Part shown: in pieces, positions 26,571-45,676 of the stretch | How positions within the stretch are numbered: position 1 is the first letter of the stretch | Layout: every line of letters starts with the position of its first letter | Origin: Ecytonucleospora hepatopenaei | Taxonomy: Eukaryota > Microsporidia > Enterocytozoonidae | Length of the DNA stretch: 64,000 nucleotides | Direction of reading: 5' to 3' | Assembly: GCA_026692725.1 (NCBI GenBank) | Contig: JAPMUG010000003.1 | Location: forward strand, 186,001 to 250,000 | The notes under the pieces: model-generated | Databases searched by the model: none | What the model saw: only the letters and a program-made list of their open reading frames with translations | Told to the model about the DNA's origin: nothing | Position numbers and translations under genes: made by a program

Positions 26571-26638
26571 AATTTAATATATATTAATATTATAATATAA
26601 TAATATAATATATATAATATTATTATATAATATATATT

Positions 26639-27197: not shown

Positions 27198-28349
27198 ATG
27201 TTAAATACAACTAATAAATGTAATAATACTAATAAATGTAATAATATCCTTATTGCATTTACTAATGATTTTACTAATGATGCTAAAATAATATATGATT
27301 ATATTTATGATAACATATTAAATAATGATATATTAAATAATGATATTGATGTATATATGTTATCAGTTGATTATATGATATGTCCTATTAAATTACCTAC
27401 TGATTATGATGTATACATTTTAATAGGTGATACATGTCCATTACATTCTATTGATAAATTAAACAATATATCAAATAGTAGTAATATAATAAATAATAAT
27501 AAATTAAACAATATATCAAATAGTACTGATATTAAAAAAGTTATTAAATATAAAACCATAGACATATATAAAGAGAATAAAATAATTAATTTAATGGAAA
27601 ATGATAATATCAATGATATTAGTGAATATACCATAGTAAGGAATAATAAGGATATAAAGGAAGTAATAGAAGAAATAAACACTATATTAAACAATACTGA
27701 TATATTAAATAATAATATATTAAACAATACTGATATATTAAATAATAATATATTAAATAATAGTAATTTATATAATACTGATATTAAATATATCAATTAC
27801 CTTAATAAAATCAAATCTAATGGTGATCCTTCTTTTTATATGAAACAAAATATATTAGGCAACCACTTCCATGATAACACTGTATTTGCTATCATATACA
27901 CCACCATGGCATATGCCAGTGATGCACACGAGGCATACACTTTGCTGAGGAAATACAAGCAGAATGTATTCAAGCTGTTTCTCAAGGAAGTCACTTACGA
28001 GAGACTCATTTCCATTGACAGTGTAGACTGCATCGTACTGGTGGACTGTCCTATGTTTGAGTGCAACATCAACCTGCACATCCCTGTCATCAGTGTGTTT
28101 AGCATGTGCAGGGGAATAGACAGGCAATGGGTGGGGGAGGGATGGAAGAGAAACAGGGTAGAACTGTTCATGAGTGAAAAGAGTTGCGGAGAGAAAGGGA
28201 GTGAGTTAGTGGTGAAGAACTGTGAGATAGCAAAGCTAATGGAGAGTAGAGAATATCAGGGAGTGGAATATAAGGGAGAAGAGGAAGATTATGAGATACA
28301 TGAGGGAAGGAAGGGAATAGCAGCAGATTATAAAGAAGAGGGAGAATAA
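27198..28349 (+). CDS. DPH2-like diphthamide biosynthesis protein with Asn-rich insert
   Basis: The protein has 383 residues. The N-terminal part (NILIAFTNDF, DYDVYILIGDTCPLHSID) and the C-terminal part (VFAIIYTTMAYASDAHEAY, DCIVLVDCPMFECNINLHIP) fit the DPH1/DPH2 fold, where the last block matches the family's (V/A)CPxxxxxD-F-PVxTPF region. Family members help build diphthamide on elongation factor 2. Residues about 95-200 are an Asn/Ile-rich insert with repeated LNNTDILNNNI, encoded by AT repeats. The conserved 3' half has much higher GC than the insert. Only two of the domains are easily seen, so DPH1 versus DPH2 is not certain. Confidence 0.6.
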   Translation: MLNTTNKCNNTNKCNNILIAFTNDFTNDAKIIYDYIYDNILNNDILNNDIDVYMLSVDYMICPIKLPTDYDVYILIGDTCPLHSIDKLNNISNSSNIINNNKLNNISNSTDIKKVIKYKTIDIYKENKIINLMENDNINDISEYTIVRNNKDIKEVIEEINTILNNTDILNNNILNNTDILNNNILNNSNLYNTDIKYINYLNKIKSNGDPSFYMKQNILGNHFHDNTVFAIIYTTMAYASDAHEAYTLLRKYKQNVFKLFLKEVTYERLISIDSVDCIVLVDCPMFECNINLHIPVISVFSMCRGIDRQWVGEGWKRNRVELFMSEKSCGEKGSELVVKNCEIAKLMESREYQGVEYKGEEEDYEIHEGRKGIAADYKEEGE

Positions 28350-28438: not shown

Positions 28439-28936
28439 TTAATTTCTTTTAAATATCTTTTCAAATATTCCATACAAATACATCTGTGGGGCTTTTCTTC
28501 TTTTTGTATTGGGCAGGGCTGAATATGCAAAATACCTTTTTATAAATATTGACATGTCCACCATTACCACCAGGAACACTGTGAACAACACCATTGCCAC
28601 CTTGCTGGTTCTGAAATTCTCTTTTTTGTTCAGAAACATCATTTTACCGTGCTTCAACACATAATCATAATCTTTTTTATTGTGCATTAGCACGCCATAT
28701 CCGACCATACATAGCTTTTTGTACTCCTCGGTTGATAGGCTTTTATGAGGATTTTTGCCTCTGGTTGCATTTCTGTATGCGTGTTTTATTTCCTGTTTGG
28801 ATGCATTTTCCTTTAGACCAAACAGTTCATAGTACGTTTTAAATTGTGTATTCTTATGCAGGTAATCAATTTTAACCAGAATATCGTGTGTTTGTGATAG
28901 AATCACAGCTAAAAAAGTAAAAAATATAGCAAACAT
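28439..28936 (-). CDS. ER membrane J-domain protein lacking the HPD motif
   Basis: The protein has 165 residues: a signal peptide or anchor (MFAIFFTFLAVILSQTHD), a J-domain at residues about 33-95 (YYELFGLKENASKQEIKHAY), and a membrane segment at residues about 112-135 (VAMVLFTVFLVVMVDMSIFI). In normal J-domains an HPD triad follows the second helix and triggers Hsp70 ATPase; here the loop reads RGKNPHK, so HPD is absent. The rest of the fold is well kept. It may be a J-like scaffold as in Pam16-type proteins, or an ERj-type protein that has lost Hsp70 stimulation. A CCC box is 39 nt upstream. Confidence 0.75.
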   Translation of the reverse strand: MFAIFFTFLAVILSQTHDILVKIDYLHKNTQFKTYYELFGLKENASKQEIKHAYRNATRGKNPHKSLSTEEYKKLCMVGYGVLMHNKKDYDYVLKHGKMMFLNKKENFRTSKVAMVLFTVFLVVMVDMSIFIKRYFAYSALPNTKRRKAPQMYLYGIFEKIFKRN

Positions 28937-28989
28937 TAGAAAATAAACTCAAACAATAAAATAAAATTAAAATAAGGGTAAGTAAAATA

Positions 28990-29165
28990 TATATTTATTT
29001 AATTATATTTAACATTTATTTAAATAATATTTTATATTTATTTAATTATATTTAACATTTATTTAAATAATATTTTATATTTATTTAATTATATTTAACA
29101 TTTATTTAAAATAAAAAAATATATTTATTTATTTATATTTAACATTTATTTAAATAATATTTTAT
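28990..29165. repeat. 43-bp tandem repeat, about four copies
   Basis: The unit contains TTTAACATTTATTTAAATAA. Copies start at 43-44 bp intervals (landmarks at 29011, 29054, 29097, 29141). It fills the gap between the J-domain gene's leader and the stop of the polyprenol reductase-like gene. Confidence 0.9.
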
Positions 29166-29177
29166 ATTAAATATATT

Positions 29178-29774
29178 TTATCTATTTCTTAACTCTACTC
29201 TCTGTTTCACTGAAATATACACAAACAATGTGGTATACACTAACATATTTAACATAAACCAACTTTTTATATAATATAAATATAACATATAAAATAGTAT
29301 TTCACATACATAATGTGTATAATTGTAATTTTCATCTTTTATTACGTATAGCTTGTAATGGAAATATCCCTGCAATATATTTAATAGCATAAAATAATAA
29401 TAAAAAGAATATGGTAAATTATGGGAATATTTTTTAAAGTACTTTCCTAGCACTGTGTAAAATATAGAGCCATGGAGTAGGTGCAACATGCTCATTTTTG
29501 ATTCTGTGTGTTTGGTGTAAAACCATGTTTCAAGTGTCCTTCTTAGGGTGTAAACCATAAAAAAGGTGTTAACACTGTAAAATACACCCAAAATATAAAA
29601 CACCAAGTAAAATCTCTTGCTAACTGACAGATATTTTACCCTTCCTCTGCCGTGGACCAAAAGGTCAGGCCAATTTAAATGGGCATACAGCACAAAAATA
29701 ACAAGAGAAGGTGCATAACAAAAATAAAATAGTTCGCTAAAATTTTCTAGAAATATTTTGAGAGAAAAAAACAT
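29178..29774 (-). CDS. Polyprenol reductase-like protein (SRD5A3/DFG10 family), short
   Basis: The protein has 198 residues and about six membrane segments. KRFYLVFYILGVFY followed by RRTLETWFYTKHTESKMSML and HLLHGSIFY is the SRD5A3/Dfg10 signature (RRLxExxFxxxxSxxxMxxxHY). A later YTHYVCEILFYM replaces the family's CPHYFxEI-Y. These enzymes reduce polyprenol to dolichol for glycosylation. The protein is about 100 residues shorter than yeast Dfg10, losing part of the loop between the two motifs. A GGG/CCC box lies about 155 nt upstream of the ATG, beyond an AT-only stretch. Confidence 0.7.
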   Translation of the reverse strand: MFFSLKIFLENFSELFYFCYAPSLVIFVLYAHLNWPDLLVHGRGRVKYLSVSKRFYLVFYILGVFYSVNTFFMVYTLRRTLETWFYTKHTESKMSMLHLLHGSIFYTVLGKYFKKYSHNLPYSFYYYFMLLNILQGYFHYKLYVIKDENYNYTHYVCEILFYMLYLYYIKSWFMLNMLVYTTLFVYISVKQRVELRNR

Positions 29775-30112
29775 TTCTTTTTTTATTACAAATTATAATA
29801 TATTTAACTAAAATATTACAATATATTTATAATATAATATTACAATATAATTATTACTTTTATTAAAATATTAAATATATTTACAATATAGCAAGAATAT
29901 AACTATAAAATTAGAATATATTTTGTTAGGGTTAAATAAATTTATATATATGATATACAATAATTATGTTTTTATTAGCAATATTTCAAAATATACTTTA
30001 TAACACTATTTTTAAATTATTTCAATATAAAAAGTTTAATATATCACGCATTAAGGTTAAATAATTTTTTATTTTTATAAATAGCCTATTATTTTATGTT
30101 TTACATTTATAA
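29775..30112. other. Divergent intergenic region with AT repeats
   Basis: Between divergent starts at 29774 and 30113. It holds repeated ATATTACAATATATTTA-like stretches near 29790-29890, the GGGTTAAATA box at 29929 (a CCC box for the minus-strand gene), and no open frame. Confidence 0.7.
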
Positions 30113-31072
30113 ATGCATATTGGCTATTATATGCACATGGAAAAGAATAAATTTAAGAGTGACTTGCTTAGGACCACTAAACTGCTAACATACATTTTAG
30201 TATATTATGCTTTATGTATTACTTTAAGCTTCATTACCAAATATTTTATAAGTGAACAGGGGTATAACTTTAGGTTTCCCATTTTTAAATCGGCAATTAC
30301 CAATATGTGCCACTTTTTAGGTGCTTTGGCCATTCTCATTTACAGGGGAGAAAACAGGAAATACGAACAGCCACAACAGACCTTGGCGTGTGCTGTAATT
30401 GGATCCGTTGACATTGGTATAGGCATACACATTTTGAGACAGGTTGACCTGGCATTTTACACCATCATAAAATCTGCTACCCCTGTTTTCATCCTTTTAA
30501 GTGGTTTTGTTTTGGGCACGGAAAAAGTTTCGTTTTTTACGCTGCTGAGCATTTTGCTCATAGCATTTGGTACTTATTTGGTTACTGTAAAGCCAATACC
30601 AACAAATAACATGGACATTTACCTTTTGGTGGGAAGTGCTATAGTTTCAGGGTTTAGGTGGTCTTTTATTCAGTTCATTCTCAGCAAAAAGAAAAGCAAT
30701 GTTTACATAGCTATTCGTGATTTGTGTCTTCCGACTTCCCTTCTTTTATTTGTTTATGCATTTAAGGTTTACGGCGTACGGGAGATTTTAGAAAGTTCAT
30801 TTTTTGACACTTACAGACATACGCTGGTAACCATGACAATTATATCCATACTAGGATTTGCATCTTTAGCAGTTCTTGTTTGTGAGCTGGTTATAGTAAA
30901 GAAAACTTCAGTTTTATTTTTGTCAATTTCTGCCGTAATAAAAGAGTTGATTATAGTGGGGGTGTCTATAACACGGGGAGATACTTGCATGACAAAATTA
31001 AATTATTTAGGAATAGTCATAAGTATATTAGGTATATTGTTATATAATGGTGTAAAATATAAAAAAATATAA
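30113..31072 (+). CDS. SLC35/TPT-family sugar-phosphate or nucleotide-sugar transporter
   Basis: The protein has 319 residues and about ten membrane segments. The family core is visible: DIGIGIHILRQVDLAFYTII followed by KSATPVFILLSGFVLG (the conserved KSxxP), and GFRWSFIQFIL in the second half, matching SLC35C2-like GxRWTxxQ. Such carriers exchange nucleotide sugars or triose phosphates across Golgi/ER membranes. Starts at 30113 or at the internal Met9 (MEKNKFKSD) are both plausible. The coding sequence is GC-richer than its flanks. Confidence 0.82.
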   Translation: MHIGYYMHMEKNKFKSDLLRTTKLLTYILVYYALCITLSFITKYFISEQGYNFRFPIFKSAITNMCHFLGALAILIYRGENRKYEQPQQTLACAVIGSVDIGIGIHILRQVDLAFYTIIKSATPVFILLSGFVLGTEKVSFFTLLSILLIAFGTYLVTVKPIPTNNMDIYLLVGSAIVSGFRWSFIQFILSKKKSNVYIAIRDLCLPTSLLLFVYAFKVYGVREILESSFFDTYRHTLVTMTIISILGFASLAVLVCELVIVKKTSVLFLSISAVIKELIIVGVSITRGDTCMTKLNYLGIVISILGILLYNGVKYKKI

Positions 31073-31218
31073 TCCATAAAACAGATATTTATGATTAAAT
31101 GCTTATAATTATAAAATAAAAATATCACTTTTATCAAATAATAAAATGTTCAAATTAAATACAGGTAATTTAAAAAATATTTTTAAATAATTTCAATTTT
31201 ACCCTAAAACACCTAACA

Positions 31219-32016
31219 ATGACAAAAAACAAAATAACTGAAGAAAAATTGAAAATTGCTGCAAAATTAAAAGAAAAACACGGTGGATTTTTTGGTATTG
31301 GTGCAAGTGCTGATTTTGTTGGCGCAGGTATAATTTATGAAGAATTAGCAGAAAATTCCACTGATAGTTCGGAAAAGGAAAAGTTTTTTACAATGGCGGC
31401 TGAAACATTTGAAATGGACAAATCCGAATATGCCCTTTGGAGATCTTCAGAGTGTTACCGCGAACTTTTTGAACTGAGCATTAAAGATGACAGGGAAAAA
31501 GCAACCGAATTTCAAGTCATGGGATGCGATAAGCTTAAAATTATAAAAAAGTGGAATATAGCTGGACAGCGGTATGTAACGCTGGGAGAGCTGTTTGAAA
31601 TAGACAGGCCAGAAAAAGCACTTGAATTTTATCAGGAAGCTGTTGAATGTTATTCCAAGGTTCCTTCCTATAAAGCCAATCTCAAAATTGTTAAGCTTAA
31701 AGTACTTTTATGCTTGATAATCCTAAAAAAATTGGACCAAATTATAAACATGATGGAAGAGGAGAATTTATTTGAAAAGCAGGAAATTTGCATGCAACTT
31801 TGTTTAATTTTGAAGGGAAGCTATAAGGAAATAGATGAAAGTGATTTAAAAAATAAGGAAGAAAAAGAACTTATTGACGCCATTTTAAATGGAGAAAAAG
31901 AAGAATACGAGGAAAAGATGAAAGAATATCAGGGTGACACCCATCTTAATGTGTATGCACAGTGTATATTTGACATGTTTTTAGAAAGTTATGCATTAGA
32001 GTCGGAGCTATGCTAA
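31219..32016 (+). CDS. SEC17: Alpha-SNAP (Sec17)
   Basis: The protein has 265 residues. It has TPR-like helical pairs throughout: GGFFGIGASADFVGAGIIYE at the N-terminus is the membrane-binding loop region, then AALWRSS-type repeats, AGQRYVTLGELFEIDRPEKA and FYQEAVECYSKV. Alpha-SNAP brings the NSF ATPase to SNARE complexes for disassembly after fusion. It is a little shorter than yeast Sec17 (292). ACCC is 15 nt before the ATG. The last residues (ALESELC) differ from the usual acidic, Leu-containing end. Confidence 0.85.
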   Translation: MTKNKITEEKLKIAAKLKEKHGGFFGIGASADFVGAGIIYEELAENSTDSSEKEKFFTMAAETFEMDKSEYALWRSSECYRELFELSIKDDREKATEFQVMGCDKLKIIKKWNIAGQRYVTLGELFEIDRPEKALEFYQEAVECYSKVPSYKANLKIVKLKVLLCLIILKKLDQIINMMEEENLFEKQEICMQLCLILKGSYKEIDESDLKNKEEKELIDAILNGEKEEYEEKMKEYQGDTHLNVYAQCIFDMFLESYALESELC

Positions 32017-32190
32017 TTCTTATTAAATATTTTTGTAATAAATTTTATGTCAACTTTTTTAAAAAATATTTACTGAGAATAAAAATGCAAGTTTATTTTG
32101 ACACTGTACAATTTGAAAATGAAAAAAATGTCAAAATGAAATTTGTTCCCTCCGCCTCTCTTATAAAAAATTTTCTTTTTACCCCATAGC

Positions 32191-32676
32191 ATGCCTAAGA
32201 ATACAAAAAAGAGAAAGGACCCAAATGCACCTAAACGACCACTCTCTTCATACATGATATATTCACAGGAAATAAGACAGACAGACGAAGAGATCAAGAA
32301 ACTGTCAATTACCGAGCAAACAAAGGCAATTAGCAGTCTCTGGAATGAGTTGTCGGAGGAAGAGAAGAAGCCTTATGTTGAAAAAGCAGCAAAAGCAAAA
32401 GAAGAGTACACAAAGAAGCTTGAAGAGTACAAGCAGTCAGACGAGTACAAAAAGTTTATGGAGGAGCAGGAAGAGCCAAAGAAAAGCAAAAAGAGTAAGG
32501 AGAAGATGACAGGAGAGAAGCTTTTTGTGCGTGAGCTCAAGGAAAATTTGACAGAAGAGGAGAAGAAGGAGATTGGAAATGCAGCAGCAGTAAGTCGCCA
32601 TGCAGCCAAAGAGTATTCAAAGCTAAGCAAGGAAAAGAAGGCAGAATATGACAATAAAGCTAAGGAGATGAATTAA
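32191..32676 (+). CDS. HMG-box chromatin protein
   Basis: The protein has 161 residues. Residues 8-78 are a classic HMG box (DPNAPKRPLSSYMIYSQEIR and SSLWNELSEEEKKPYVEKA). A second, weaker HMG-like helix bundle follows at residues about 105-160 (GEKLFVRELKENLTEEEKKE), ending KEMN. NHP6/HMGB proteins bend DNA and help nucleosome remodelling. The codons are GC-richer than the surroundings. ACCCC occurs 7 nt before the ATG. Confidence 0.9.
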   Translation: MPKNTKKRKDPNAPKRPLSSYMIYSQEIRQTDEEIKKLSITEQTKAISSLWNELSEEEKKPYVEKAAKAKEEYTKKLEEYKQSDEYKKFMEEQEEPKKSKKSKEKMTGEKLFVRELKENLTEEEKKEIGNAAAVSRHAAKEYSKLSKEKKAEYDNKAKEMN

Positions 32677-32755
32677 TTAGTAAAATAATATTATTAATAA
32701 AATATTTTTATTATAATTAAATTTAATTTATCAATAAAGTATTAATATAATTGAA

Positions 32756-34759
32756 TTATTGTTTGTTGTTCTTTAATTTATCTCTCTTCTTAAAATATAT
32801 CCTCTGTTTTGTCTTTCTCTCTGCTATATAATCATCCTTATTTATACCAAATGCAGAGGAATGGATTAAAGTATTGTGTTTATTGTATGGAATATAAAAT
32901 TTATCTTTAAATATATTGCTGGTATTTTTATTGTCTTTAAATATATTTTTATATTTATTTTTACTTATACCATTTTTATTGTTACCATTTCTTATCTTCT
33001 TTATTTGGTCAGCTAATGTTTCCTTCTGCCTGTATTTGCTGTGTATTCCTATTGAGTTTACTAATGATTTGTATTCAGAAGGAACACTGACTTTCCCTCT
33101 AAACTGCAAGCATTTTTGATACCCACGCATGGCTTTTTGTCTGGCATAAGTAAACTTTTTCAAATCAAATCTGTCAAGCATATTCTGTGGTAACATTCCT
33201 ATTTCACCATGTTTACTATAATTATTACCAATACTGTTATCATTATCATTTAAATTATTGTTATCATTTATTATGCTACTATATGCTGTTTTTGATGTTT
33301 CATATGGATTTATTTTAAAATGTGTTTCTCTTATGTTATAATACTGAAATATGTCTGAATAAGTTACCAATGATATGCTATCCCCTATTCCTCTTACCCT
33401 TCCTGCTCTGTGCACGTATGTTTTTTCATCGCACATGTCATAGGATATTGCAGTGGTAACACGGGGGATATCCAGCCCACGGGCAGCCACATCCGTAACC
33501 ACCAGGTATCTGATTTTACCCTTAACAAACGCATCCAAGGCAGACTGTCTTGCCTCATCATCCATTCCACTGTATATTCCCATTGTTTTAAATCCGTAAT
33601 GGTTTAAAATTTCACACAGCAAATCTACTGCATATTTGGTAGCAGTGAAAATTATGATATTATCATTATTATTATTTAATTTATCACTAAAATTATTATT
33701 ATTATTTAATTTATCACCTATATTATTATTATTTAATTTATCACTAAAATTATTGTTATTATTTAATTTATCACTAAAATTATTGTTATTATTTAATTTA
33801 TCACTAAAACTATTGTTATTATTTAATTTATCGCTAAAATTATTGTTATTATAAGTATTAATGCTATTTTTATTTATATCACTAATTATTGATAATAATG
33901 CTCCTTCTTTACTTTCTGTTGCCACATAATAAAAATAGTGTGATATGCTTTCTGGTATTTTACTCTCTATTTTTACTATGCTGCTTATTTCCTTTACTGG
34001 ATCAACTGGGAGAGTTGCTGAGAAATACGCACGCTGCTTGCTGTAATTTGCAGTGAGTTTGTCAAAATGATTTTTTAAGGAAGGTTCCTCCATGATTCGA
34101 TCAAATTCGTCAACCACTAAAAAATCTACAAATGTATTTATGTCTGATAAATTATATTTGCTGTTTAAATCATTAACTAACTGATTAAATGTATTTCTTT
34201 CATTATGAATAAAATTATCATTTTGTAAAATATCATTATTTGAATCATTTTGTGAAATACCATTATTTGAATCATTATGTGAAATACCATTATTTAAATT
34301 GTTTATAATGTTTATCATGTCGTTGTTTACTTTATTGCTGTTGCAATACACCTGTTTTAGGTCCAAATTGCTATTTAGTGTTGTTATCTTTATCCTTCCA
34401 TTTATTTTTATTTTTCCTTTTATTTCTTCCAGTACCTTTTGGATTTGTTTGGCCAATTCTTTTGTAGGGCATAAAATAAGCGTATTTTTATTGTTTAGTG
34501 CATGTTGTATGGCAGGTATGAGATAGCACAGGGTCTTGCCAGAACCAGTCCTGGCTATGGCCATGAGAGACCCGCCCAGCATCAGCTTAGGAATGGTCTT
34601 TCTCTGTATGGGTGTAGGTGTGTTATATTTAGCAGTGATAGCAGAGTATAGCAGTGGGTGTAAATTAAGCGTATTAAAGCTACCACCATGTAATTTATTT
34701 GAATTATTATTTAAATTATTTGAATTATTGTTATTTATATTAGATAATTCATTAATCAT
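32756..34759 (-). CDS. DBP10: DEAD-box RNA helicase, DBP10-like
   Basis: The protein has 667 residues. It starts with an Asn-rich leader, then GSFNTLNLHPLLYSAI and PTPIQRKTIPKLMLGG (Q motif), ARTGSGKT (motif I), VVDEFDRIME (motif II, with DEFD for DEAD), FSATLP (III), AARGLDIP (V) and HRAGRVRG (VI). The C-terminal FTYARQKAMRGYQKCLQFRG and a basic tail fit Dbp10, a nucleolar 60S biogenesis helicase. Between the two helicase lobes about 55 residues are a 27-bp minisatellite, and another Asn-rich loop sits at residues about 150-190. The CCC box is 114 nt from the ATG. Confidence 0.82.
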   Translation of the reverse strand: MINELSNINNNNSNNLNNNSNKLHGGSFNTLNLHPLLYSAITAKYNTPTPIQRKTIPKLMLGGSLMAIARTGSGKTLCYLIPAIQHALNNKNTLILCPTKELAKQIQKVLEEIKGKIKINGRIKITTLNSNLDLKQVYCNSNKVNNDMINIINNLNNGISHNDSNNGISQNDSNNDILQNDNFIHNERNTFNQLVNDLNSKYNLSDINTFVDFLVVDEFDRIMEEPSLKNHFDKLTANYSKQRAYFSATLPVDPVKEISSIVKIESKIPESISHYFYYVATESKEGALLSIISDINKNSINTYNNNNFSDKLNNNNSFSDKLNNNNNFSDKLNNNNNFSDKLNNNNIGDKLNNNNNFSDKLNNNNDNIIIFTATKYAVDLLCEILNHYGFKTMGIYSGMDDEARQSALDAFVKGKIRYLVVTDVAARGLDIPRVTTAISYDMCDEKTYVHRAGRVRGIGDSISLVTYSDIFQYYNIRETHFKINPYETSKTAYSSIINDNNNLNDNDNSIGNNYSKHGEIGMLPQNMLDRFDLKKFTYARQKAMRGYQKCLQFRGKVSVPSEYKSLVNSIGIHSKYRQKETLADQIKKIRNGNNKNGISKNKYKNIFKDNKNTSNIFKDKFYIPYNKHNTLIHSSAFGINKDDYIAERKTKQRIYFKKRDKLKNNKQ
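33650..33855. repeat. 27-bp minisatellite inside the DBP10 coding sequence
   Basis: About six in-frame units encode NNNNFSDKL-type nonapeptides, one variant reading NNNNIGDKL. They sit in the linker between the RecA-like lobes, where extra length can be tolerated. Confidence 0.92.
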
Positions 34760-34952
34760 TTTTATAAAAATAAAAAATACTATTATAAACTATAAAATAA
34801 AAATACAATAAATTATTATAAATATAATATTATAACTATAATATAATTATATAATAAAATTTTTAAATATATGGGTTAATAAATTTTTATATTTTTACTA
34901 AAATAATTTACTAATAATAGTTTACTAATAAAATAATTTACTATAAAATAAT

Positions 34953-35495
34953 TTAATCATCTTTTTCTATTTTTCTCTTTTTATTAGATTTATCATCATC
35001 TTCTTTATTATTTATTTCACCCAAATAACCACCTTTATAATTAATACCTGCATCACTAAATCGTAATGTATATAAAGATCGTCTTTTTCTTTTATTATCT
35101 TTTTTATTATCTTTACTGTTATTAGTATTAGTATTTTCTCTTTCCTTTTTACATTTATCACATATCCATTTACCATCATCTAATTTATGACCATCTGCAT
35201 TTGTTTTTTGTTGTTTTTCTTGATTTCGCTGTTTTTTATAATTTTCACTGGTCACCCATCTTTTTCTAATTGAACCATCTGCCTGTTTTTCTTTTATCAA
35301 TAAATAATCTTGTGTCACTACTGTTTGTTGTTTTACATGTTTATTTTGTATAGGTCCTTCTGTTGATGTAACATTAGGTGTTGATTGTATGATTGTGGAT
35401 GTGTTTTCACTGGTACTTGGATTATTTCCTGTATTTCTACTGTTATCATTGTTTCTTATATTAAATAAATTTGATAACAAATTAAAAGGCCACAT
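34953..35495 (-). CDS. MW-P/KDD family protein 1
   Basis: The protein has 180 residues and is of unknown function. It begins MWPFNLLSNLFNIRNN, then an Asn/Thr/Ser-rich part sharing NTGNNPSTS with the paralog at 36781-37791. A single CxxC pair (WICDKCKKERE) sits in the middle and the C-terminus is basic/acidic (NKKRKIEKDD) with an NLS-like KKRK. The CCC box is 168 nt upstream, separated by a 10-bp repeat expansion. It is likely a fast-evolving lineage-specific family, nuclear or secreted; which one is not decided by the sequence. Confidence 0.65.
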   Translation of the reverse strand: MWPFNLLSNLFNIRNNDNSRNTGNNPSTSENTSTIIQSTPNVTSTEGPIQNKHVKQQTVVTQDYLLIKEKQADGSIRKRWVTSENYKKQRNQEKQQKTNADGHKLDDGKWICDKCKKERENTNTNNSKDNKKDNKRKRRSLYTLRFSDAGINYKGGYLGEINNKEDDDKSNKKRKIEKDD

Positions 35496-35589
35496 ATTTG
35501 TTTAAATTATATGTTGTTATATTTAAATTAAATTATATGTTTTTATATTTAAATTAAATTATATATTGTATAGTTTATGTTGTTATATT

Positions 35590-35660
35590 AAAATTAAATT
35601 ATTATATTTATGTATATTTATGTATATTTATGTATATTTATGTATATTTATGTATATTTA
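35590..35660. repeat. 10-bp tandem repeat (TGTATATTTA)
   Basis: About six copies of TGTATATTTA between the CCC box at 35664 and the ATG at 35495 of the MW-P/KDD family gene on the minus strand. They account for part of the distance between box and start. Confidence 0.9.
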
Positions 35661-35882
35661 TATGGGTTATTAAATATTTTTAATATTTTTAACTATTACA
35701 CTAAAATTATCTAAACATATTAATAAATATTGATAACTAGTAGTAAGACTACTAACATATATTAATTATTTAATTTTATAAATTATTTATTTATATAATA
35801 TTATTTTTTATAATTATATTATTTTTTATAATTATATTTTTTATAATTATATTATTTATTTATATGTTAGGAGTCCGGATGG

Positions 35883-36035
35883 ATGGAGGAATACAATATC
35901 TATTACTATCATTTATTAAAGTCATCTCAAAAACTAGGGGTAAAATATATAAGGAAAGGATATGTAGGAGGAGTACTCCAACATTATATAATATTCTTCT
36001 TTTTTCTAATTATTTACATTGTTATTCTTTTTTAA
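35883..36035 (+). CDS. Possible 50-residue tail-anchored membrane protein
   Basis: A short frame starting MEEYNIYYYHLLKSSQKLGV, followed by a basic patch and a strongly hydrophobic C-terminus (IIFFFFLIIYIVILF). An overlapping frame (ATG at 35864 or 35879) reads less protein-like. The layout, a short amphipathic segment followed by a terminal membrane anchor, suits a small translocase or SNARE-like subunit. The DNA here is GC-richer than around it. No CCC box and no family; it could also be a gene remnant. Confidence 0.35.
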   Translation: MEEYNIYYYHLLKSSQKLGVKYIRKGYVGGVLQHYIIFFFFLIIYIVILF

Positions 36036-36048
36036 GCTTATTTATGAT

Positions 36049-36599
36049 TTAATCATCTTTTTGTATTTTTCTCTTTTTATTATGCCTGTATTTATTTACA
36101 CATGTATTTGAGTCACTAATACATTCTTTATAATATTCATTACATGGTTTAGAATAATCATTAGAACAGTCTATTTTACATTTACTTCTTGTAAAGTATG
36201 AAGAACTATCACTATACATACATTTACATTCTGATATATTATTATATTCTAATATATCTTTGCATTCTGATTGTAATGTATTATTATATAGATTAAAATT
36301 ATTTATATCATTTACATTATCACCACTAAGTATATCATTAGTTAATAAAAATGGACTTATATTATTATATGATAATGGTGTATTCTACTTCTTTTACTGG
36401 GTGTTATTTTATTTAATAAAAATGGTGATTGTGTATGTTTATTATTATCATTATATTCATTAATATATTTATTATCATTATATTCATTAATATATTTATT
36501 ATCATTATATTCATTATTTAATGTATATGATTGATTATATGATATATCCTTATATATATTTGTATTAGATCCAAAATTATAAATAACAATTAAAATCAT
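36049..36599 (-). pseudogene. MW-P/KDD family member 3, frameshifted remnant
   Basis: On the minus strand the last 120 codons end in KKRKIQKDD, the same tail as the neighbour at 34953. They contain SSYFTRSKCKIDCSND, aligning with NYFLRSECQKELDRTG of the paralog at 36781. The upstream part is in a different frame (36357-36599, beginning MILIVIYNFGSNT) with a repeated NEYNDNKYI peptide. The two parts are joined only through a frameshift near 36360-36390. The protein has many Cys (about nine) in the last 75 residues. It is probably a decaying copy, unless the assembly has an indel. Confidence 0.6.
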
Positions 36600-36780
36600 A
36601 ATTAAATATTTTTAATTTATATAAGTGTTTGTTTATTTATTTTTAAAAAATACTATTAAAATTATTTATTTATTTTATTGATCTAATAGTTAATACTTTT
36701 TTATTTAAAATATATATAAAATATATTAAATATAGAATATATAGAATAATATAAAATATATTAAATAATTAATTATTTAT

Positions 36781-37791
36781 TTAATCATCTTTTTCATTAT
36801 CATTACGTTTGTCTTCATTTGATTTTCTCCTCTTTGTTGAACTTTCAGTAATTATTGTATTATAAATGTCATCACATGATTTATTTCCAGTCCTATCTAA
36901 CTCTTTTTGACACTCGCTTCTTAAGAAATAATTAGGATATTTCTCTTCATCTGCAGATTTATTAGTTTCTGTATGTTTTCTTTTAGCACTTCTTTTACCT
37001 CTTGAACTGCCTTGTCCTGCATCAGTTTGACCCGTGCCATTACAATTATTTCTGAGAGGAGTAGAAGTTGTAAGTGGTTCAAAATCATCAGGTTGTGGTG
37101 TATCATCACATTCATCTGCTTGTTGTCTTGTTTGATTTTCTTGCTGTTGCCCTGTTTGATTTTCTTGCTGTTGTCCTGTTTGATTTTCTTGCTGTTGTTG
37201 TTCTGTATGCTGTGAATCTTGATGTTGTTCTGTTTGATTTTCTTGCTGTTGCTGTCTTGTTTCTTGCTTTTGTTGTCCTGTTTGATTTTCTTGAGGTTGT
37301 CCTGTTTGATTTTCTTGCTGCTGTCTTGTTTCTTGCTGCTGCCCTGTATGTTGTGAATCTTGAGGTTGTCCTGTTTCTTGCTGTTGTCTTGTTTCTTGCT
37401 GTTGTCTTGTTTGATTTTCTTGCTGCTGTTCTGTTTGATTTTCTTGAGGCTGTCCTGTTTGATTTTCTTGTTGTTGCTGCTGCCTTGTTTGATTTTCTTG
37501 TTGTCGCCGATTTATACATGACTCACACAAATATATATCTTCTGGTTTACCGTTCACAATTCTTTGCCCAACCTTGAACATTTTTACCATTGATGAATGT
37601 TTTTGTGACTGTTTAGATGTTGTTGCACTTGTACCTGCTGATGGCAATGGTCTATTGACAATAGTAGTACTGGTTGTTGTTCTAACTGTTGGTGTACTTC
37701 CACTGGTACTTGGATTATTTCCTGTATTTTCATTATTCTCATTATTGCTTCTACTAAAGAAATTTGCTAAACTATTTAAAGGCCACCACAT
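36781..37791 (-). CDS. MW-P/KDD family protein 2, Gln-rich repeats
   Basis: The protein has 336 residues. It opens MWWPLNSLANFFSRSNNENN, then NTGNNPSTS shared with paralog 1, a CxxC pair (YLCESCINRR), and a block of about 125 residues of Gln-rich repeats (QQENQTGQQ and variants). The last 90 residues have basic NLS-like segments (GKRSAKRKH, TKRRKSNED) and end NEKDD. The CCC box is 50 nt upstream. Gln repeats vary in short units of 5-11 residues, encoded by a GC-richer minisatellite at about 37118-37510. The function is unknown. Confidence 0.7.
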   Translation of the reverse strand: MWWPLNSLANFFSRSNNENNENTGNNPSTSGSTPTVRTTTSTTIVNRPLPSAGTSATTSKQSQKHSSMVKMFKVGQRIVNGKPEDIYLCESCINRRQQENQTRQQQQQENQTGQPQENQTEQQQENQTRQQQETRQQQETGQPQDSQHTGQQQETRQQQENQTGQPQENQTGQQKQETRQQQQENQTEQHQDSQHTEQQQQENQTGQQQENQTGQQQENQTRQQADECDDTPQPDDFEPLTTSTPLRNNCNGTGQTDAGQGSSRGKRSAKRKHTETNKSADEEKYPNYFLRSECQKELDRTGNKSCDDIYNTIITESSTKRRKSNEDKRNDNEKDD

Positions 37792-38136
37792 ATTAAAAAT
37801 AGAATATTATATTATTATATTATTATATTAAAACTTTATATGGGTTATTAAATATTTTTAATTTTTAAATGTTTTTAATATATTAATGTTTTTAAAATTT
37901 TTAACTTACTTATTAACTAATAAATCAGTTATTAAAATTCATCTTATTGAAAGAAAAACTTACTACTACTAAAATTTTTTTAATCTTTTAAAATTTAATA
38001 TTAGATTAAAATATGTTATTAAAACATATAAATAAAAGAATATTATTAACATATTAATAAATTAATAAATTAATAAAATACTTTCATATGCATGCTTATG
38101 TCATAAGGACAATAGATTAGATTTTTAAAATTAGAA
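37792..38136. other. Intergenic, AT-rich, with CCC box
   Basis: Contains the ATATGGGTTA box (37842-37844 GGG) serving the minus-strand gene at 37791. The rest is poly-A/T-rich with short ATTAATAA repeats. The last 45 bp (from about 38090) begin the segment duplicated from 11800. Confidence 0.7.
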
Positions 38137-38159
38137 ATGTTTTTCCTTAACTTTTTTAT

Positions 38160-38703
38160 TTATTTATATTTATTTATATTTATTTATATTTATTTATATT
38201 TATTTATATTTATTTATATTTATTTATATTTATTTATATTTATTTATATTTATTTATATTTATTTATATTTATTTATATTTATTTATATTTATTTATATT
38301 TATTTATATTTATTTATATTTATTTATATTTATTTATATTTATTTATATTTATTTATATTTATTTATATTTATTTATATTTATTTATATTTATTTATATT
38401 TATTTATATTTATTTATATTTACTTATATTTATTTATATTTATTTATATTTATTTATATTTATTTATATTTATTTATATTTATTTATATTTATTTATATT
38501 TATTTATATTTATTTATATTTATTTATATTTACTTATATTTATTTATATTTATTTATATTTATTTATATTTATTTATATTTATTTATATTTATTTATATT
38601 TATTTATATTTATTTATATTTATTTATATTTATTTATATTTATTTATATTTATTTATATTTATTTATATTTATTTATATTTATTTATATTTATTTATATT
38701 TAT
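38160..38703. repeat. 10-bp microsatellite (TATTTATATT), about 54 copies
   Basis: A perfect run of TATTTATATT with only two one-base variants (TACTTATATT at 38421 and 38531). It sits between the upstream homology block and the ATG of the duplicated gene. All three plus frames are open through it, giving a spurious 228-residue reading frame. Confidence 0.97.
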
Positions 38704-38821
38704 TATAACATGACAATTTATACTAACAGATTATTAAAAGTATATACTGAATATTTAAACTTACTCGAACAGAAAGAGTCTATTAAGCTAAATGCATTTA
38801 AAGAACTTCCGTCTACTTTAT

Positions 38822-38930
38822 AATTTAAAATACCTTGTAATTTAACATACCTTGTAACTTAACATACCTTGTAACTTAACTTACTTTATAATTTAACATA
38901 CCTTGTAATCTAAATTAACTTTATAATCTA
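38822..38930. repeat. 17-bp tandem repeat
   Basis: About five to six imperfect units of TAATTTAACATACCTTG, inserted into the decayed duplicate gene. Confidence 0.8.
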
Positions 38931-39219
38931 AGAAGGAACCTGAACGGTGAGAGTCCATTTTAGCACTACGGTTCTATTTAAAGTGTATAATTTTATTTAA
39001 ATCAAATCCATGAAAGCTCAAAAGAAGGAATTGAAGCAATGATAATTAAAATATATAATTAATTAATAAAATTATCACTAACAATTATATTTAATAATAA
39101 ATTATTTAATAACAATTATATTTTATTTAATAACAATTATAATTATTGTTATTATATTATATTATAATTATTTTATATTATATTTTATATTAATATTTTA
39201 ATTTAATATAATACTATTA

Positions 39220-42039
39220 CTATTCTATCTTCCTCTTCTTCCTATCTCTCTCAATATCACTTACCCTTGCCCTATTCCTATTATCTTCTTCTCTCTTCCT
39301 AATAAAATATTCTTCCATATCCCTATATAAATTGTGTTTATTAGCAAGTGCAACAGCATCATCATAATTAACACTAATTAACCATAATATTTTAACCTTA
39401 ATAAACTTATCTAATATATCAGTATTATTACTATTATTACTATTATTACTATTATTTGTATTTATATAATTTATAATTTTATCAATGATATTAATATAAT
39501 CATTAGTATTATTGTTAGTATTATTATAATTAGTATTACTTATATTATTACTTATATTATATTTATTACAACATTCTAATAATATATTACTATTAAATAT
39601 AATATTATATAATACATTACTGTTATATAATATATTACCATTATCATTATATAATATATTAGTATTAGTATTAGTATTATCATTATGTAATATATTAATT
39701 ATATTTATATAATATTTCATAGCTATATTATAATTACCTAATAAATAATATGTAATAGCAATATTATTATATAAATATATAGTATAATAATTAATATTAT
39801 ATATATTAGTATATAATATATTAGTATCTTTTATATCCTTTTCTAATTGTTTATATATATTAATAGCTTTATATAAATATTTAATATATAAATTATTATC
39901 ATATAATATGTTGTTATTATCATATAATATGTTGTTATTATCATTATGTATAGTATTATCATATAAATCATATGATATACTATTATGTATATAATATTTT
40001 ATATAACTTATTGCTAATATATTCATACTATAAAATGATACTTTATTCCTATCACTGTTTATATCATATATTAGTGTAATGTATTTAATATCCTTAGTAA
40101 TATCATACATACATAAATAGCAATATGATAGTATACTATTAGTGTATAATATATTAGTATTATTTATATTAGTATTATTTATATTATGTAATATATCAAT
40201 AATGGTATTATATATATCAGTATTATATATATTGTATAATATACTATGTATATAATATATATCATTATTATCTAATATATTATTATGTATATCACTATAA
40301 TTTATATTAGTATTATGTATATATGTAATATATTTATTATATATATTTATATTAGTATTACATATATTACTGTTATTACTGTTATTTAATATATTAGTAT
40401 TATTTATTATATTAGTATTACTATTATATTCTAATATTTTTATATTATATTCCATATATTGTATTTTATCATTATATACTCTATTACTATTATTACTACT
40501 ATTTATTATATTAGTGTTATTACATATTTCTATTCCTTTCTTAATATATTCTGTATTATTTGTTATTACACCTATATTATTGTATATTTCTATTAGTGAA
40601 TATATATTAGTGTTATTGTGTAATATATTAATATATTCATTATATGCATTATATTTATTATTGTTGATATAAATATATAAATTAATATAATCACTAATAT
40701 TGTTATTATTATTTGTATTATTGTTATTATTTGTATTATTACTGTTTATTATATTATTACTGTTATATAAATTTATATTACTGTTACTGTTATATAAATT
40801 TATATAATCATATAATATATTATAATCATTTATTATCCTATATATATTAGTATGTATATCCACTCTCTTTCCTTTTATTCTACATATATTATATAGTGCA
40901 GGTATATATGACTTATTAGCTTTATATGATTCATAATAATATTCACATGCATTATCATATAATATATTAGTATTATTTGTATTATTTGTGTTATTTGTAT
41001 TAGTATTATTTGTATTAGTGTTATTCAATATATTACTGTTATTTATATTATCATATAATTTATGATATATCTTTCCTATCATATAATCTACTTCTGATGT
41101 ATAACTTAACTTGTCTTTTATATCTTTTAATTGTTCTATATATGTCTTGCTATTTGATAATAGACTATCATGTGTACTATTATTAATATTATTTAATATG
41201 TGTTGAATAGTATAATCACTATTGTTAGTATTAGTAATAGTATTATTTATATTGTTTATATTTATATTATTAGTATTATTAGTATTATTAGTATTATTAG
41301 TATTTATATCACTATTTTGTAAATTATTAGTATTATACATTCTATATAATATAGTATATGCTTTTCTATCTAATAAATATTTGTGTATATTTTTATTAGA
41401 CCATAATTTACTATTTATAAATGAATATAATACGATATCAGTTATATTACATATATTACATATATTACTGTTATTATCATTATATACTGTATTTGTATTA
41501 TTTATATCATTATATAATATATTTGTATTATTTATACTATTATATATTATATTAGTATTATTTATATCCTTCTGTGCTATATAACATAACATCTCTCCTC
41601 TTTTATACTTTGCTTCTTTAAACAGTCTTATTGCTGTCTTGTAGTCTTTCTCTTTATACATGTGATACCCTTTTATTACCAGTGTTCTTCTTAATTTGTT
41701 AGGTGATAGCTGTTCAAATAATTTAGTATTTTCTATTGTTTTATTATGTGTGATATTAAGAGCTATTAAATAAGAAACTATAATATCATTAGAATAATTA
41801 TTAGAATAGCTATTATTTATATTATTTTGTAAATTATTATGTAAATTATTATTAGTATTATTAGTATTTTTTATATTATTATTAGTATTATTATTAGTAT
41901 TTTTAATATTATTATGTATTTTTGTTAATACTTGTAATACTTCATCATACTTAGTATAATTAGCTGCTGACCATTCTAATATTTCTTTAATACTTATAGT
42001 ATTATTATCAATAGAATGTAATATTTCAGTATATATCAT
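39220..42039 (-). CDS. TPR-repeat protein, CTR9-like, Asn-rich
   Basis: The protein has 939 residues. TPR-like helical pairs are visible: GYHMYKEKDYKTAIRLFKEA near residue 130, ACEYYYESYKANKSYIPALY near residue 365, YNNIAITYYLLGNYNIAMKY near residue 770. The C-terminus is charged (YFIRKREEDNRNRARVSD then DRKKRKIE). About half the protein is Asn/Thr/Ile-rich low complexity from AT repeats. A long TPR array with a basic/acidic charged tail resembles the Paf1-complex subunit Ctr9, but an anaphase-promoting complex TPR subunit is also possible. CCC boxes lie 161 and 271 nt upstream, separated from the ATG by repeats. Confidence 0.6.
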   Translation of the reverse strand: MIYTEILHSIDNNTISIKEILEWSAANYTKYDEVLQVLTKIHNNIKNTNNNTNNNIKNTNNTNNNLHNNLQNNINNSYSNNYSNDIIVSYLIALNITHNKTIENTKLFEQLSPNKLRRTLVIKGYHMYKEKDYKTAIRLFKEAKYKRGEMLCYIAQKDINNTNIIYNSINNTNILYNDINNTNTVYNDNNSNICNICNITDIVLYSFINSKLWSNKNIHKYLLDRKAYTILYRMYNTNNLQNSDINTNNTNNTNNTNNININNINNTITNTNNSDYTIQHILNNINNSTHDSLLSNSKTYIEQLKDIKDKLSYTSEVDYMIGKIYHKLYDNINNSNILNNTNTNNTNTNNTNNTNNTNILYDNACEYYYESYKANKSYIPALYNICRIKGKRVDIHTNIYRIINDYNILYDYINLYNSNSNINLYNSNNIINSNNTNNNNNTNNNNNISDYINLYIYINNNKYNAYNEYINILHNNTNIYSLIEIYNNIGVITNNTEYIKKGIEICNNTNIINSSNNSNRVYNDKIQYMEYNIKILEYNSNTNIINNTNILNNSNNSNICNTNINIYNKYITYIHNTNINYSDIHNNILDNNDIYYIHSILYNIYNTDIYNTIIDILHNINNTNINNTNILYTNSILSYCYLCMYDITKDIKYITLIYDINSDRNKVSFYSMNILAISYIKYYIHNSISYDLYDNTIHNDNNNILYDNNNILYDNNLYIKYLYKAINIYKQLEKDIKDTNILYTNIYNINYYTIYLYNNIAITYYLLGNYNIAMKYYINIINILHNDNTNTNTNILYNDNGNILYNSNVLYNIIFNSNILLECCNKYNISNNISNTNYNNTNNNTNDYINIIDKIINYINTNNSNNSNNSNNTDILDKFIKVKILWLISVNYDDAVALANKHNLYRDMEEYFIRKREEDNRNRARVSDIERDRKKRKIE

Positions 42040-42695
42040 AATGTTATTTATATTATATTATAAAATAGTATAGTATAAAATATTATATTATAAATTAATG
42101 TATTATAAAATATTATATTATATTATAAATTAATGTATTATAAAATATTATATTATATTATAAATTAATGTATTATAAAATATTATATTATAAAATATAT
42201 GGGTTAAATATTTTACAAAATATAATACTATATAATAGTATATGTTATATAGTATATGTTATATAGTATATGTTATATAGTATAATACTATATATTAGTA
42301 TATGTTATATGGGTTAATTATATTGATTTGTTTATATGTTAAATAAGCTTAATATATTTAACCTTAACCTTAAAATACTAACATTAGTATTATATGTAAA
42401 TATTAGTATATGTAATATATTAGTATTATATATATAACTAACATAATAATATATATTGTTAAATAGTTAGCTATAATGTTTATTACGTATGTTATATTTA
42501 TTTATATTTATATATATTTTATGCTTATAATTTATATATTTTTATCCCTTTATAAATATATTATTAATATATTATAAATATACTCCTTTACACTATTATA
42601 ATATACTATATAAATATATTATAGTATAATACATAATATAATATTTAATTTATTATAATAATACATAATATACTATAATAATATTACAGTATAAT
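42040..42695. repeat. Divergent leader block with AT tandem repeats
   Basis: Between the TPR gene (minus) and the SulP gene (plus). It holds three to four units containing TTATAAATTAATGTATTATA (42070-42190), GGGTTAA boxes at 42201 and 42311 for the minus gene, a TATGTTATATAGTA repeat (42240-42300), and TATCCCTTTATAAATA at 42544 for the plus gene. No open frame. Confidence 0.75.
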
Positions 42696-44708
42696 ATGTT
42701 AAATAATAAATATTATAAATATATTACTAATATATTATATAATATAATAATACCTATAATAATATCATTAGTAATAATACCAATATTTTTATCATATATA
42801 GGTACAAAGTATATATATAATTATAATACTGATATAAACAATACTATATATAATACTGATATATATAATTATACTAATAATAATATTAGTAGATTTATAT
42901 TTATATATTCTATAATAGTAGGTCAAATAACATATTCATTATTATCATCATCACCATATAAGTTAGTATGGTTACCAATATTAGATAGTATATTTATATT
43001 AGATAAGATATATAGTAATATACATAATAAGATATTAAATAATAGTAATATATTAAATAATAGTAATATACATGATAAGATAAATAATATTAATATATAT
43101 AATATACTATATTGTCTTATAATATTATTAATTATCAATTATATTACTAGTATTATATCATTTATATTGGTATCACTAGATTGGTGTAAGTATATGATAC
43201 GTATACCAATATCAGTGGAAATAGCATTAGGCATATATACAGGTATAACATTTACACTATTACCAATAATACAGTTATATGATGATAATACATATAATAC
43301 ATATAACAGTAATACATATAACAGTAATATAAACAGTAATACATATAATACTAATATATTATTTACTGATAAACTATTTAATATATTATTACAATGTATT
43401 ATTACTATAATTGGTATTATGTTATTTATATATTATATGCATCCATTTATTATATCACTATATATTATATGTAATATAATACTAATACATATAATATGTA
43501 AATATACTAATATATGTAAATATATACATATAATATATAATGGTAATATATGTAATACAAATATAATAAATATAATATATAATACATATAATAGTAATAT
43601 ATATAATACATATAATAATACATATAATACATATAATAATACATATAATAATATATTATATTATATATTATGTAATATACATATAATTATTAGTATAGTA
43701 ATGATTAATATAATAATGTATACACTATCATTAGTAGCATATATGAATAGGTATGACATACATATGGATGTAAATAGAGAGTATATGGCATATGGGTTAT
43801 CAAATATGATAGGAGTGTGTTGTACAGGTGGTATAAATTATGCATGTAGTATATTATTAAATATATGTAATACATATAATACACATAATACACATAATAC
43901 ACATAATACACATAATAACAGTAATACATATAATAACAGTAATACATATAATAACAGTAATATATGTAATAAATATAAATATAATAATTTAAATAATAAC
44001 AGTAATATATGTAATAAATATAAATATAATAACAGTAATAGTTTAAATAATAAATATTGTAATATTCTACTTGGTATTTGTAGTACTGCTATTCTATTTA
44101 TTTACCATTATATTGCTAACTACATTAACATATATGTATCACTCTTTATTATGCAGTTCATTGGTGTATTATACCTATTGGAATATATTAGTGTGATACG
44201 TAATATCAGTTATGTTGATATGGTATATGTTATAATACTATCATGTATAAATTATATTAATGGTGGTATTATTATAATATGTATAATAGTGATATCAGTG
44301 ATATACATAATAAGATATATATGTAATATACATAATACTAATAATATAACTGATATAAATACTAATACTAATAATATAACTGATACTAATACTAATACTA
44401 TTATATTTCCTATTGTTGTTGATGCATTTAATATACATAATATAATAAAAGATATTAAGAATATAAGTAATAGTAATATAAGTAATAGTATAAACAATAG
44501 TATAGGTAATAGTATAAACAATACTAATATAAGTAATATAAGTAATATAAGTAATAAGAATATAAGTAATAATACTATATATATTGATCTTACTTATTGT
44601 AAATATATTGATATTAGTGGTAATATTACATTAAATAGATATATTAGTAATAATAATATAAATATTAAGATAATAGGTAATTGTATAAATAATTATATAA
44701 AAATATAA
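42696..44708 (+). CDS. SulP-family anion transporter with STAS domain
   Basis: The protein has 670 residues and about ten to twelve membrane segments. Family landmarks are GQITYSLLSSSPYKLVW near the N-terminus and DVNREYMAYGLSNMIGVCC near residue 360, matching the SulP (N/D)xELxAxGxxN block. A C-terminal STAS-like domain has IYIDLTYCKYIDISGNITLN. The pattern most resembles the yeast Vsb1/YGR125W-type branch. Loops are long Asn/Thr-rich repeats (HNTHNTHNT, NSNTYNNSNTYN), so the gene is larger than its relatives for its number of segments. A CCC box lies 148 nt before the ATG. Confidence 0.72.
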   Translation: MLNNKYYKYITNILYNIIIPIIISLVIIPIFLSYIGTKYIYNYNTDINNTIYNTDIYNYTNNNISRFIFIYSIIVGQITYSLLSSSPYKLVWLPILDSIFILDKIYSNIHNKILNNSNILNNSNIHDKINNINIYNILYCLIILLIINYITSIISFILVSLDWCKYMIRIPISVEIALGIYTGITFTLLPIIQLYDDNTYNTYNSNTYNSNINSNTYNTNILFTDKLFNILLQCIITIIGIMLFIYYMHPFIISLYIICNIILIHIICKYTNICKYIHIIYNGNICNTNIINIIYNTYNSNIYNTYNNTYNTYNNTYNNILYYILCNIHIIISIVMINIIMYTLSLVAYMNRYDIHMDVNREYMAYGLSNMIGVCCTGGINYACSILLNICNTYNTHNTHNTHNTHNNSNTYNNSNTYNNSNICNKYKYNNLNNNSNICNKYKYNNSNSLNNKYCNILLGICSTAILFIYHYIANYINIYVSLFIMQFIGVLYLLEYISVIRNISYVDMVYVIILSCINYINGGIIIICIIVISVIYIIRYICNIHNTNNITDINTNTNNITDTNTNTIIFPIVVDAFNIHNIIKDIKNISNSNISNSINNSIGNSINNTNISNISNISNKNISNNTIYIDLTYCKYIDISGNITLNRYISNNNINIKIIGNCINNYIKI

Positions 44709-45104: not shown

Positions 45105-45292
45105 ATTATAATTTATATTTTTATATATATAATATTATAATTTTATATATAACTGTATATTTATATTTTTATATATAACTGTATATTATATATATAAATA
45201 ATATTATAATATTATATTTTTATAATTTATAATTTTATATATAACTGTATAATTTTGCTATGGGGTTTTTATAAAAATTTACCCTTCTTTTT

Positions 45293-45676
45293 ATGCTTTT
45301 TGTTCAGTTGGGGAGAGAAGTTGCAATGAGACAGCTCAAACATAGGGATGAAAAGGGTGTCATTACTGGCATCATTGACAACAAGTTTGTAGTGATAGTT
45401 AAGCAGGATAGGAGTAGTGAAGTGGTTAGAGTGGATGATTTTGTATTAAATGATAAAGTATATTCATTTGAAAGTAGCAGTGTTAGTAACACTAATGATA
45501 ATGATAACAATAGTAACATTACTGTTGATACAGGTAAAAGAATTATTAAAACATTAGAGAGTGAAGGATTCTTTAATAAAAATAACACTGTTAAGAAAGA
45601 AGAAATGAGTGATTTTGAAAGGTATAAAATAACCATAAGAGATAAAGTAGCAGAAAAAATTATAAAAAATTATTAA
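45293..45676 (+). CDS. RPL14: 60S ribosomal protein eL14
   Basis: The protein has 127 residues. The KOW/SH3-like N-terminus (FVQLGREVAMRQLKHRDEKG, VITGIIDNKFVVIV) and the C-terminal MSDFERYKITIRDKVAEKII match eL14 (MTDFDRYKVxxxKKxRxxII). Residues about 68-85 are an Asn/Asp/Ser-rich spacer (NTNDNDNNSNITVD) not seen in the family. The start is supported by ACCCTTCTTTTTATG. Its CCC box is close to the ATG even though the flanking DNA is repeat-rich. Confidence 0.85.
   Translation: MLFVQLGREVAMRQLKHRDEKGVITGIIDNKFVVIVKQDRSSEVVRVDDFVLNDKVYSFESSSVSNTNDNDNNSNITVDTGKRIIKTLESEGFFNKNNTVKKEEMSDFERYKITIRDKVAEKIIKNY

Follow-up and report, generated by a model that had tools for sequence, protein, structure and literature searches.

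The window, a 64-kb stretch of DNA (G000:C7:186001-250000) in a genome of 3,094,744 bases and 13 contigs, contains a series of genes whose CCC boxes stand far upstream of the start codon. Six such sense-strand boxes had been reported in an earlier note, 50-168 nt 5' of their ATGs, and our distances agree with its values to within 1 nt; the DNA in between is AT-rich and for the most part repetitive. Five of the genes lie on the minus strand. The 29178-29774 gene has its CCC at 29929-29931 and a leader, the stretch between box and ATG, of 154 nt (29775-29928). DBP10 (CDS 32756-34759) follows a leader of 113 nt (34760-34872) with a box of the form TAACCCATAT (CCC 34873-34875), and the same form is found at the next three genes. 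In the 34953-35495 gene the leader is 168 nt (35496-35663), with 10-bp and 26-bp arrays and eight antisense ATGs, and the CCC is at 35664-35666. The 36781-37791 gene, whose product weakly matches that of the 35495 gene, has a 50-nt leader (37792-37841) with an 8-bp array and its CCC at 37842-37844. The TPR gene (CDS 39220-42039) has a leader of 161 nt (42040-42200; four antisense ATGs) and its CCC at 42201-42203, with a second TAACCCATAT box (42311-42313) 271 nt from the ATG and nine antisense ATGs in between. The sixth, the SulP-named gene on the plus strand (CDS 42696-44708), is preceded by a 147-nt leader (42549-42695; two antisense ATGs) and a CCC at 42546-42548 that belongs to a TATCCC box, not to the ACCC form. 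The names SulP and TPR are those of the earlier note; a Pfam scan returned no family for the SulP-named product and only below-cut-off matches for the TPR product.

Two minus-strand genes can be added to these six, a DnaJ-domain gene at 28439-28936 (CCC 28976-28978; leader 28937-28975, 39 nt) and the 44790-45104 gene (CCCC 45262-45265; leader 45105-45261, 157 nt, one antisense ATG). Each of the eight leaders, and the longer stretch to the second TPR box, contains no sense ATG. The 44790-45104 gene is one of a divergent pair, its partner being the plus-strand gene at 45293-45676, which serves as a short-leader comparison with its CCC (45282-45284) 8 nt 5' of the ATG. The opposite-strand boxes in the interval 45105-45292 are 16 bp apart and the leaders are 157 and 8 nt, so that the promoter is compact and only one of its two genes has a long leader.

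Distal boxes had been described as a property of the block at 29-43 kb, but the pattern is spread over the genome and also occurs in the window outside this block, with box-ATG distances of 46, 84 and 192 nt within 1-25 kb. Nor do most ATGs in 1-25 kb have a CCC within the preceding 20 nt, as had been stated; of the 23 ORFs there that reach 100 aa only 10 do, as do two of three at 45-49 kb. No CCC was found in the intergenic DNA (up to 700 nt examined) preceding the genes at 27198, 30113 and 45998. Few long ORFs are present at 49-58 kb, and a short ORF at 50408-50653, which by eye we take to resemble a fragment of an IS1595-type transposase, had no Pfam match.

Two classes of box distance

The TAACCCATAT box occurs 26 times in the 3.09-Mb genome, against six occurrences of the reversed control pattern. 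At 18 of the 26 sites, a count that includes both TPR gene boxes and two near-identical gene copies, the first downstream sense ATG starts an ORF of at least 60 aa, and at 16 of these 18 the leader is 50-392 nt long. The other eight sites include one within the SulP-named coding sequence and one at locus L041. A further form of the box, TATAACCCTT, is present at 15 places in the genome.

ORFs of at least 100 aa were called in the window, in 70 kb around it on C7, at the 13 contig starts and in 3-kb loci, giving 191 after exclusion of ORFs with N or overlapping a longer ORF by at least 30%. With identical upstream sequences collapsed, the nearest CCC was at least 40 nt away in 60 ORFs, 37 of them with an (A/T)ACCC box, which is also the commonest box context of short-leader genes (38 of 52), and 23 with CCC in other contexts. 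Removal from the 37 of two duplicates, two MEELFK paralogues (L008 and L012) and L026 left a set of 32 long leaders. Nineteen of these come from 264 kb that had not been chosen by pattern (hereafter unpicked DNA), which holds 126 nonredundant ORFs.

An (A/T)ACCC box was found within 500 nt of 58 of the 126 ORFs in unpicked DNA; the 68 without one may include false ORFs and genes with other boxes. Fifty of the 58 boxed ORFs have no sense ATG after the box, and in these the box lies at 0-14 nt (30 ORFs) or at 36-272 nt (20 ORFs), with none at 15-35 nt. In the remaining eight the box is 91-346 nt away and is followed by one to six sense ATGs. The distances were fitted better by two components than by one (BIC 196 versus 214), although the empty interval at 15-35 nt is suggestive only, since two broad classes could leave it empty at these numbers.

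The boxes of both classes resemble the published CCC-like motif of microsporidia (PMC2685015, PMC2803860), a sense CCC upstream of the start codon after a purine and a T- or A/T-rich run; here too the CCC is preceded by A and by T/A-rich DNA. In the short class (52 genes) A is at -1 with a frequency of 0.83 and T at -3 with 0.63. The corresponding value for T at -3 in the long class (32 genes) is 0.75, or 0.63 when only the 19 genes from unpicked DNA are counted. In the long class A at -1 is fixed by the selection for (A/T)ACCC. The published motif is mostly within 15 nt of the ATG, whereas here there is a large class at 36-272 nt in unpicked DNA, and a distance of 392 nt at L037. Because the box lies within about 15 nt in 30 of the 58 boxed ORFs and beyond it in 28, we regard the long class as a variant of the microsporidian CCC-box promoter.

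Far-box genes have mixed functions. Pfam families above cut-off were assigned to 8 of 20 far-box proteins, among them Rpt6, chitin synthase, cyclophilin, a proteasome subunit, NIF phosphatase, a CDP-alcohol transferase and a Brr6-like protein, and at least these eight are therefore not junk ORFs. Rpt6 (26S proteasome subunit 8, encoded near the window at L018) is 84% identical to the protein of Enterospora canceri, 82% to that of Nucleospora cyclopteri and 92% to one further database sequence, and the best named protein matches of DBP10 are from Nucleospora and Vittaforma. With best protein matches that are microsporidian and of this kind, the genome appears to be Enterocytozoonidae-like. Proteins of long-leader genes are richer in asparagine (0.150 versus 0.078, p = 0.0002; in unpicked DNA 0.136 versus 0.083, p = 0.04), with a weak correlation between leader length and asparagine content (rho 0.21, p = 0.057), and GC3 did not differ between the leader classes (p = 0.17).

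Sense ATGs between box and start codon

The 32 long leaders (4,733 nt) contain one sense ATG and 46 antisense ATGs. Dinucleotide shuffles of the same leaders gave 24.0 ± 3.5 sense ATGs, with a minimum of 14 in 1000, and left 17.4 leaders free of sense ATG (maximum 24 of 300), compared with the 31 of 32 observed. Controls that preserve the repeats gave 46 ATGs when the leaders were reverse-complemented, 67 when reversed and 80 when complemented. Nineteen leaders have only antisense ATGs and one has only a sense ATG (p = 4e-5). The same was seen in the 19 leaders from unpicked DNA (1 sense versus 28 antisense) and in the 18 leaders without ATAT after the box (1 sense ATG versus 15.6 expected), the latter having other boxes and so providing a check independent of the TAACCCATAT form. 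Among leader trinucleotides with an expectation of at least 8, none comes close to ATG in depletion (observed/expected 0.04, compared with 0.95 for CAT); GTA is also under expectation (67 versus 105). The full set of 37 contains 14 sense ATGs, 13 of them in the three rows removed after inspection (L008, L012 and L026), versus 32.0 expected (minimum 18 of 500 shuffles), and 33 of the 37 have none. The window leaders alone are a weak test (0 versus 3.3 expected; 1.4% of shuffles reach 0), and the strength of the depletion comes from loci outside the window. Long leaders thus have the depletion of upstream AUGs on the mRNA strand that is expected of a scanned 5' UTR.

An artefact of composition or of ORF calling is a highly improbable cause of this depletion. 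The leaders are 91% AT with few G, and some in-frame upstream ATGs would be absorbed into the called ORF; however, the shuffles preserve both G content and dinucleotides, and absorption affects at most one of three frames. Moreover, the 23 distant CCCs in other contexts, subjected to the same ORF calling, had no overall depletion (59 ATGs versus 60.1 expected). This control may itself hold real boxes, because 9 of the 23, including that of the SulP-named gene, are followed by no ATG.

The ATG-free zone is sharply bounded. In successive bins of 50 nt (150 nt for the final one downstream), sense ATGs occur at 9.2, 7.5 and 5.5 per kb upstream of the box and at 0.6, 0, 0 and 0 downstream of it, while antisense ATG density is 8-13 per kb throughout on both sides. 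Since sense ATGs upstream of the CCC come as near to it as 4, 6 and 8 nt, the purged zone begins at about the box. The simplest reading of this edge is that transcription would start at the box, as RACE has indicated for the near-ATG boxes of Encephalitozoon cuniculi (PMC2803860).

At some loci sense ATGs do follow a box. At L041 (1501-1700) an ATG-rich array begins immediately after a TAACCCATAT box, with 24 sense ATGs before the next 60-aa ORF and no ORF of 60 aa on this strand for 1.1 kb downstream of the box; this may be a dead gene that is no longer under the constraint. Each of the MEELFK copies near contig starts (L008, 8011; L012, 5884) has additional ATGs upstream of its called ORF, and in L008 an ATG lies 1 nt after the box where the corresponding triplet in L012 is ACG. 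These are perhaps decayed starts.

Start codons and repeat arrays

Adenine is at -3 of the start codon in 24 of the 32 long-leader genes, compared with a mean of 0.44 at positions -4 to -12 (p = 0.001), in agreement with what is expected of a scanned 5' UTR. It is found in 17 of the 19 genes from unpicked DNA and in 7 of the remaining 13. The contrast with short-leader genes is only moderate, as 10 of the 20 in which the box is at least 6 nt away also have A at -3. The called starts of DBP10 and Rpt6 agree with orthologues. The DBP10 ATG is the sole in-frame ATG before a conserved GGSF motif (eight orthologues reaching that far), and the ATG of Rpt6, which has a 170-nt leader, is at most three residues away from the start of eight sequences aligned with it. 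Upstream ORFs and shifted start codons were rejected on these grounds, together with the lack of ATG in 31 of 32 leaders. Predicted RNA structure of the leaders did not differ from that of shuffles (mean z -0.01). Genes for eIF1-type and eIF4E proteins were found in the genome, the intact eIF4E gene being on C5; a second eIF4E-like locus (G000:C6:129121-129492) has two internal stop codons.

Tandem arrays make up 71% of the length of the 32 leaders, which at 91% AT are not the AT-only sequence described earlier. They also account for 47% of the sequence on the upstream side of these boxes, where 25 of the 32 offered 30 nt or more for analysis, and for 20% on the upstream side of short-leader boxes, where 50 of the 52 did. 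Within the DBP10 coding sequence, a 30-bp array at 33665-33852 gives the helicase an asparagine-rich insert without counterpart in nine aligned orthologues. Repeats upstream of boxes and in coding DNA indicate that growth is a regional process that does not target leaders. Of the earlier proposal that repeats grew specifically between a fixed box and the ATG, the fixed distal box and the longer leader are therefore retained and the specificity is not.

Two further arrays are present in the window without a CCC upstream. Approximately 85 copies of an 8-bp unit at 26571-27247 reach some 50 nt into the gene at 27198-28349, which has a below-cut-off match to diphthamide synthesis and its nearest sense ATG 343 nt away. 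The second array, at 38153-38704, consists of 55 copies (99% matches) of a 10-bp unit, and after it comes an ATG at 38710 that opens a frame of 37 codons; the 228-aa ORF at 38137-38823 is mostly a same-frame translation of this repeat.

A change of length inside a leader was seen directly in two copies of one gene (L009 and L013), in which a 7-bp leader array is 39 nt shorter in one copy and the box and near flanks are identical. Their coding sequences are 99.9% identical over 868 aligned positions, with one 18-nt length difference. Leader lengths were equal in two other pairs of gene copies (129/129 and 172/172 nt). Because the distribution of distances has two peaks, the data do not establish a simple gradual lengthening of short leaders. 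It is possible, though we consider it doubtful, that long leaders did not arise by lengthening of short ones and represent a promoter class of old and separate origin, such as one of stage-regulated genes, which would be compatible with the explanation preferred below. The two peaks, the absence of distances at 15-35 nt and the BIC values fit such an origin, but boxes are alike in the two classes, the leader array differs in length between the copies of one gene, and functions as varied as those of Rpt6, chitin synthase, cyclophilin and a proteasome subunit are represented.

Long leaders as probable scanned 5' UTRs

We consider it probable, from the DNA sequence, that the distal box sets the transcription start, that the repeat DNA behind it is a scanned 5' leader, and that slippage in this leader is filtered against AUG on the mRNA strand. 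The (A/T)ACCC box would be the core promoter element that fixes the start of transcription in both gene sets. In one set, with the box 0-15 nt before the ATG, the mRNAs would be nearly leaderless; in the other, with the box 36 to about 400 nt away, the AT-rich repeat would be transcribed as a 5' leader. Ribosomes loading at the mRNA 5' end would scan as far as the first AUG. Repeat units in the leader could be added or removed by replication slippage, and units with an mRNA-strand AUG would be selected against. Given the alternatives of tolerated long leaders or relocated starts, as the earlier note put them, tolerated long leaders are favored because sense ATGs are purged from box to start codon (1 versus 24 expected) and not upstream of the box, and because the DBP10 and Rpt6 starts fit their orthologues.

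Transcription might instead begin near the ATG, in which case the distal CCC would be a relic or a coincidental triplet, and the repeats would be ordinary intergenic slippage DNA. Repeats do occur upstream of boxes and in coding DNA, and in other microsporidia the box is mostly within 15 nt of the ATG (PMC2685015), with 5' UTRs of less than 7 nt in E. cuniculi (PMC2803860). However, there is no evident reason for untranscribed DNA to lose ATG from one strand between box and start codon, and we regard a start near the ATG as unlikely. That the box-to-ATG stretches are 5' introns removed by splicing is improbable in the extreme. Putative microsporidian introns often adjoin the start codon (PMC3749934), but introns have no need to be ATG-free, and leader introns were rejected on the missing GTARG donor motif (0 of 32 leaders). 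Searches of the genome for PROCN and U6 also gave no match, although such negatives are not proof.

Within the preferred explanation, that of a scanned leader behind a fixed box, we propose more tentatively still than the separate promoter class that a single core promoter may serve two modes of translation, with initiation at the 5' end for leaders of 0-15 nt and scanning for those of at least 36 nt. Intermediate lengths might be avoided since neither mode would work, and slippage-prone AUG-free repeats could be the means of crossing between modes. TISU or leaderless initiation (PMC6769788) is a possible analogue for the 0-15 nt class.

Long leaders have a precedent among microsporidia in Edhazardia aedis, in which 5' UTRs average 180 nt and reach 255-348 nt by RACE in one gene (PMC2474625). 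Unlike the present case, that species is described as having a large genome and multiple start sites, and the available text of the report mentions no box, repeats or purging of ATG. Upstream AUGs have been proposed as a limit on 5' UTR elongation in animals, although the same paper argues that the target is upstream ORFs and not AUGs (PMC3283318); in contrast to such models of 5' UTR length, leaders here have gained length as tandem repeats that lack AUG, downstream of a promoter box that stays fixed. A literature search, with subscription journals mostly outside its scope, revealed no report of ATG-free repeat leaders in microsporidia.

E. cuniculi, the model of small microsporidian genomes, has been described as nearly free of 5' UTRs (PMC2803860). 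The AT repeats analysed here, nearly free of mRNA-strand ATG, suggest real, ribosome-scanned mRNA leaders. If so, the sharply bounded ATG-free zone would suggest, on DNA sequence by itself, the sites at which transcripts begin, as well as continued strong selection on scanning initiation in a 3.1-Mb eukaryote. It would also be a clean natural case of translation filtering the growth of tandem repeats, and the box together with the first ATG would offer a simple means of correcting gene starts in genomes of this kind.
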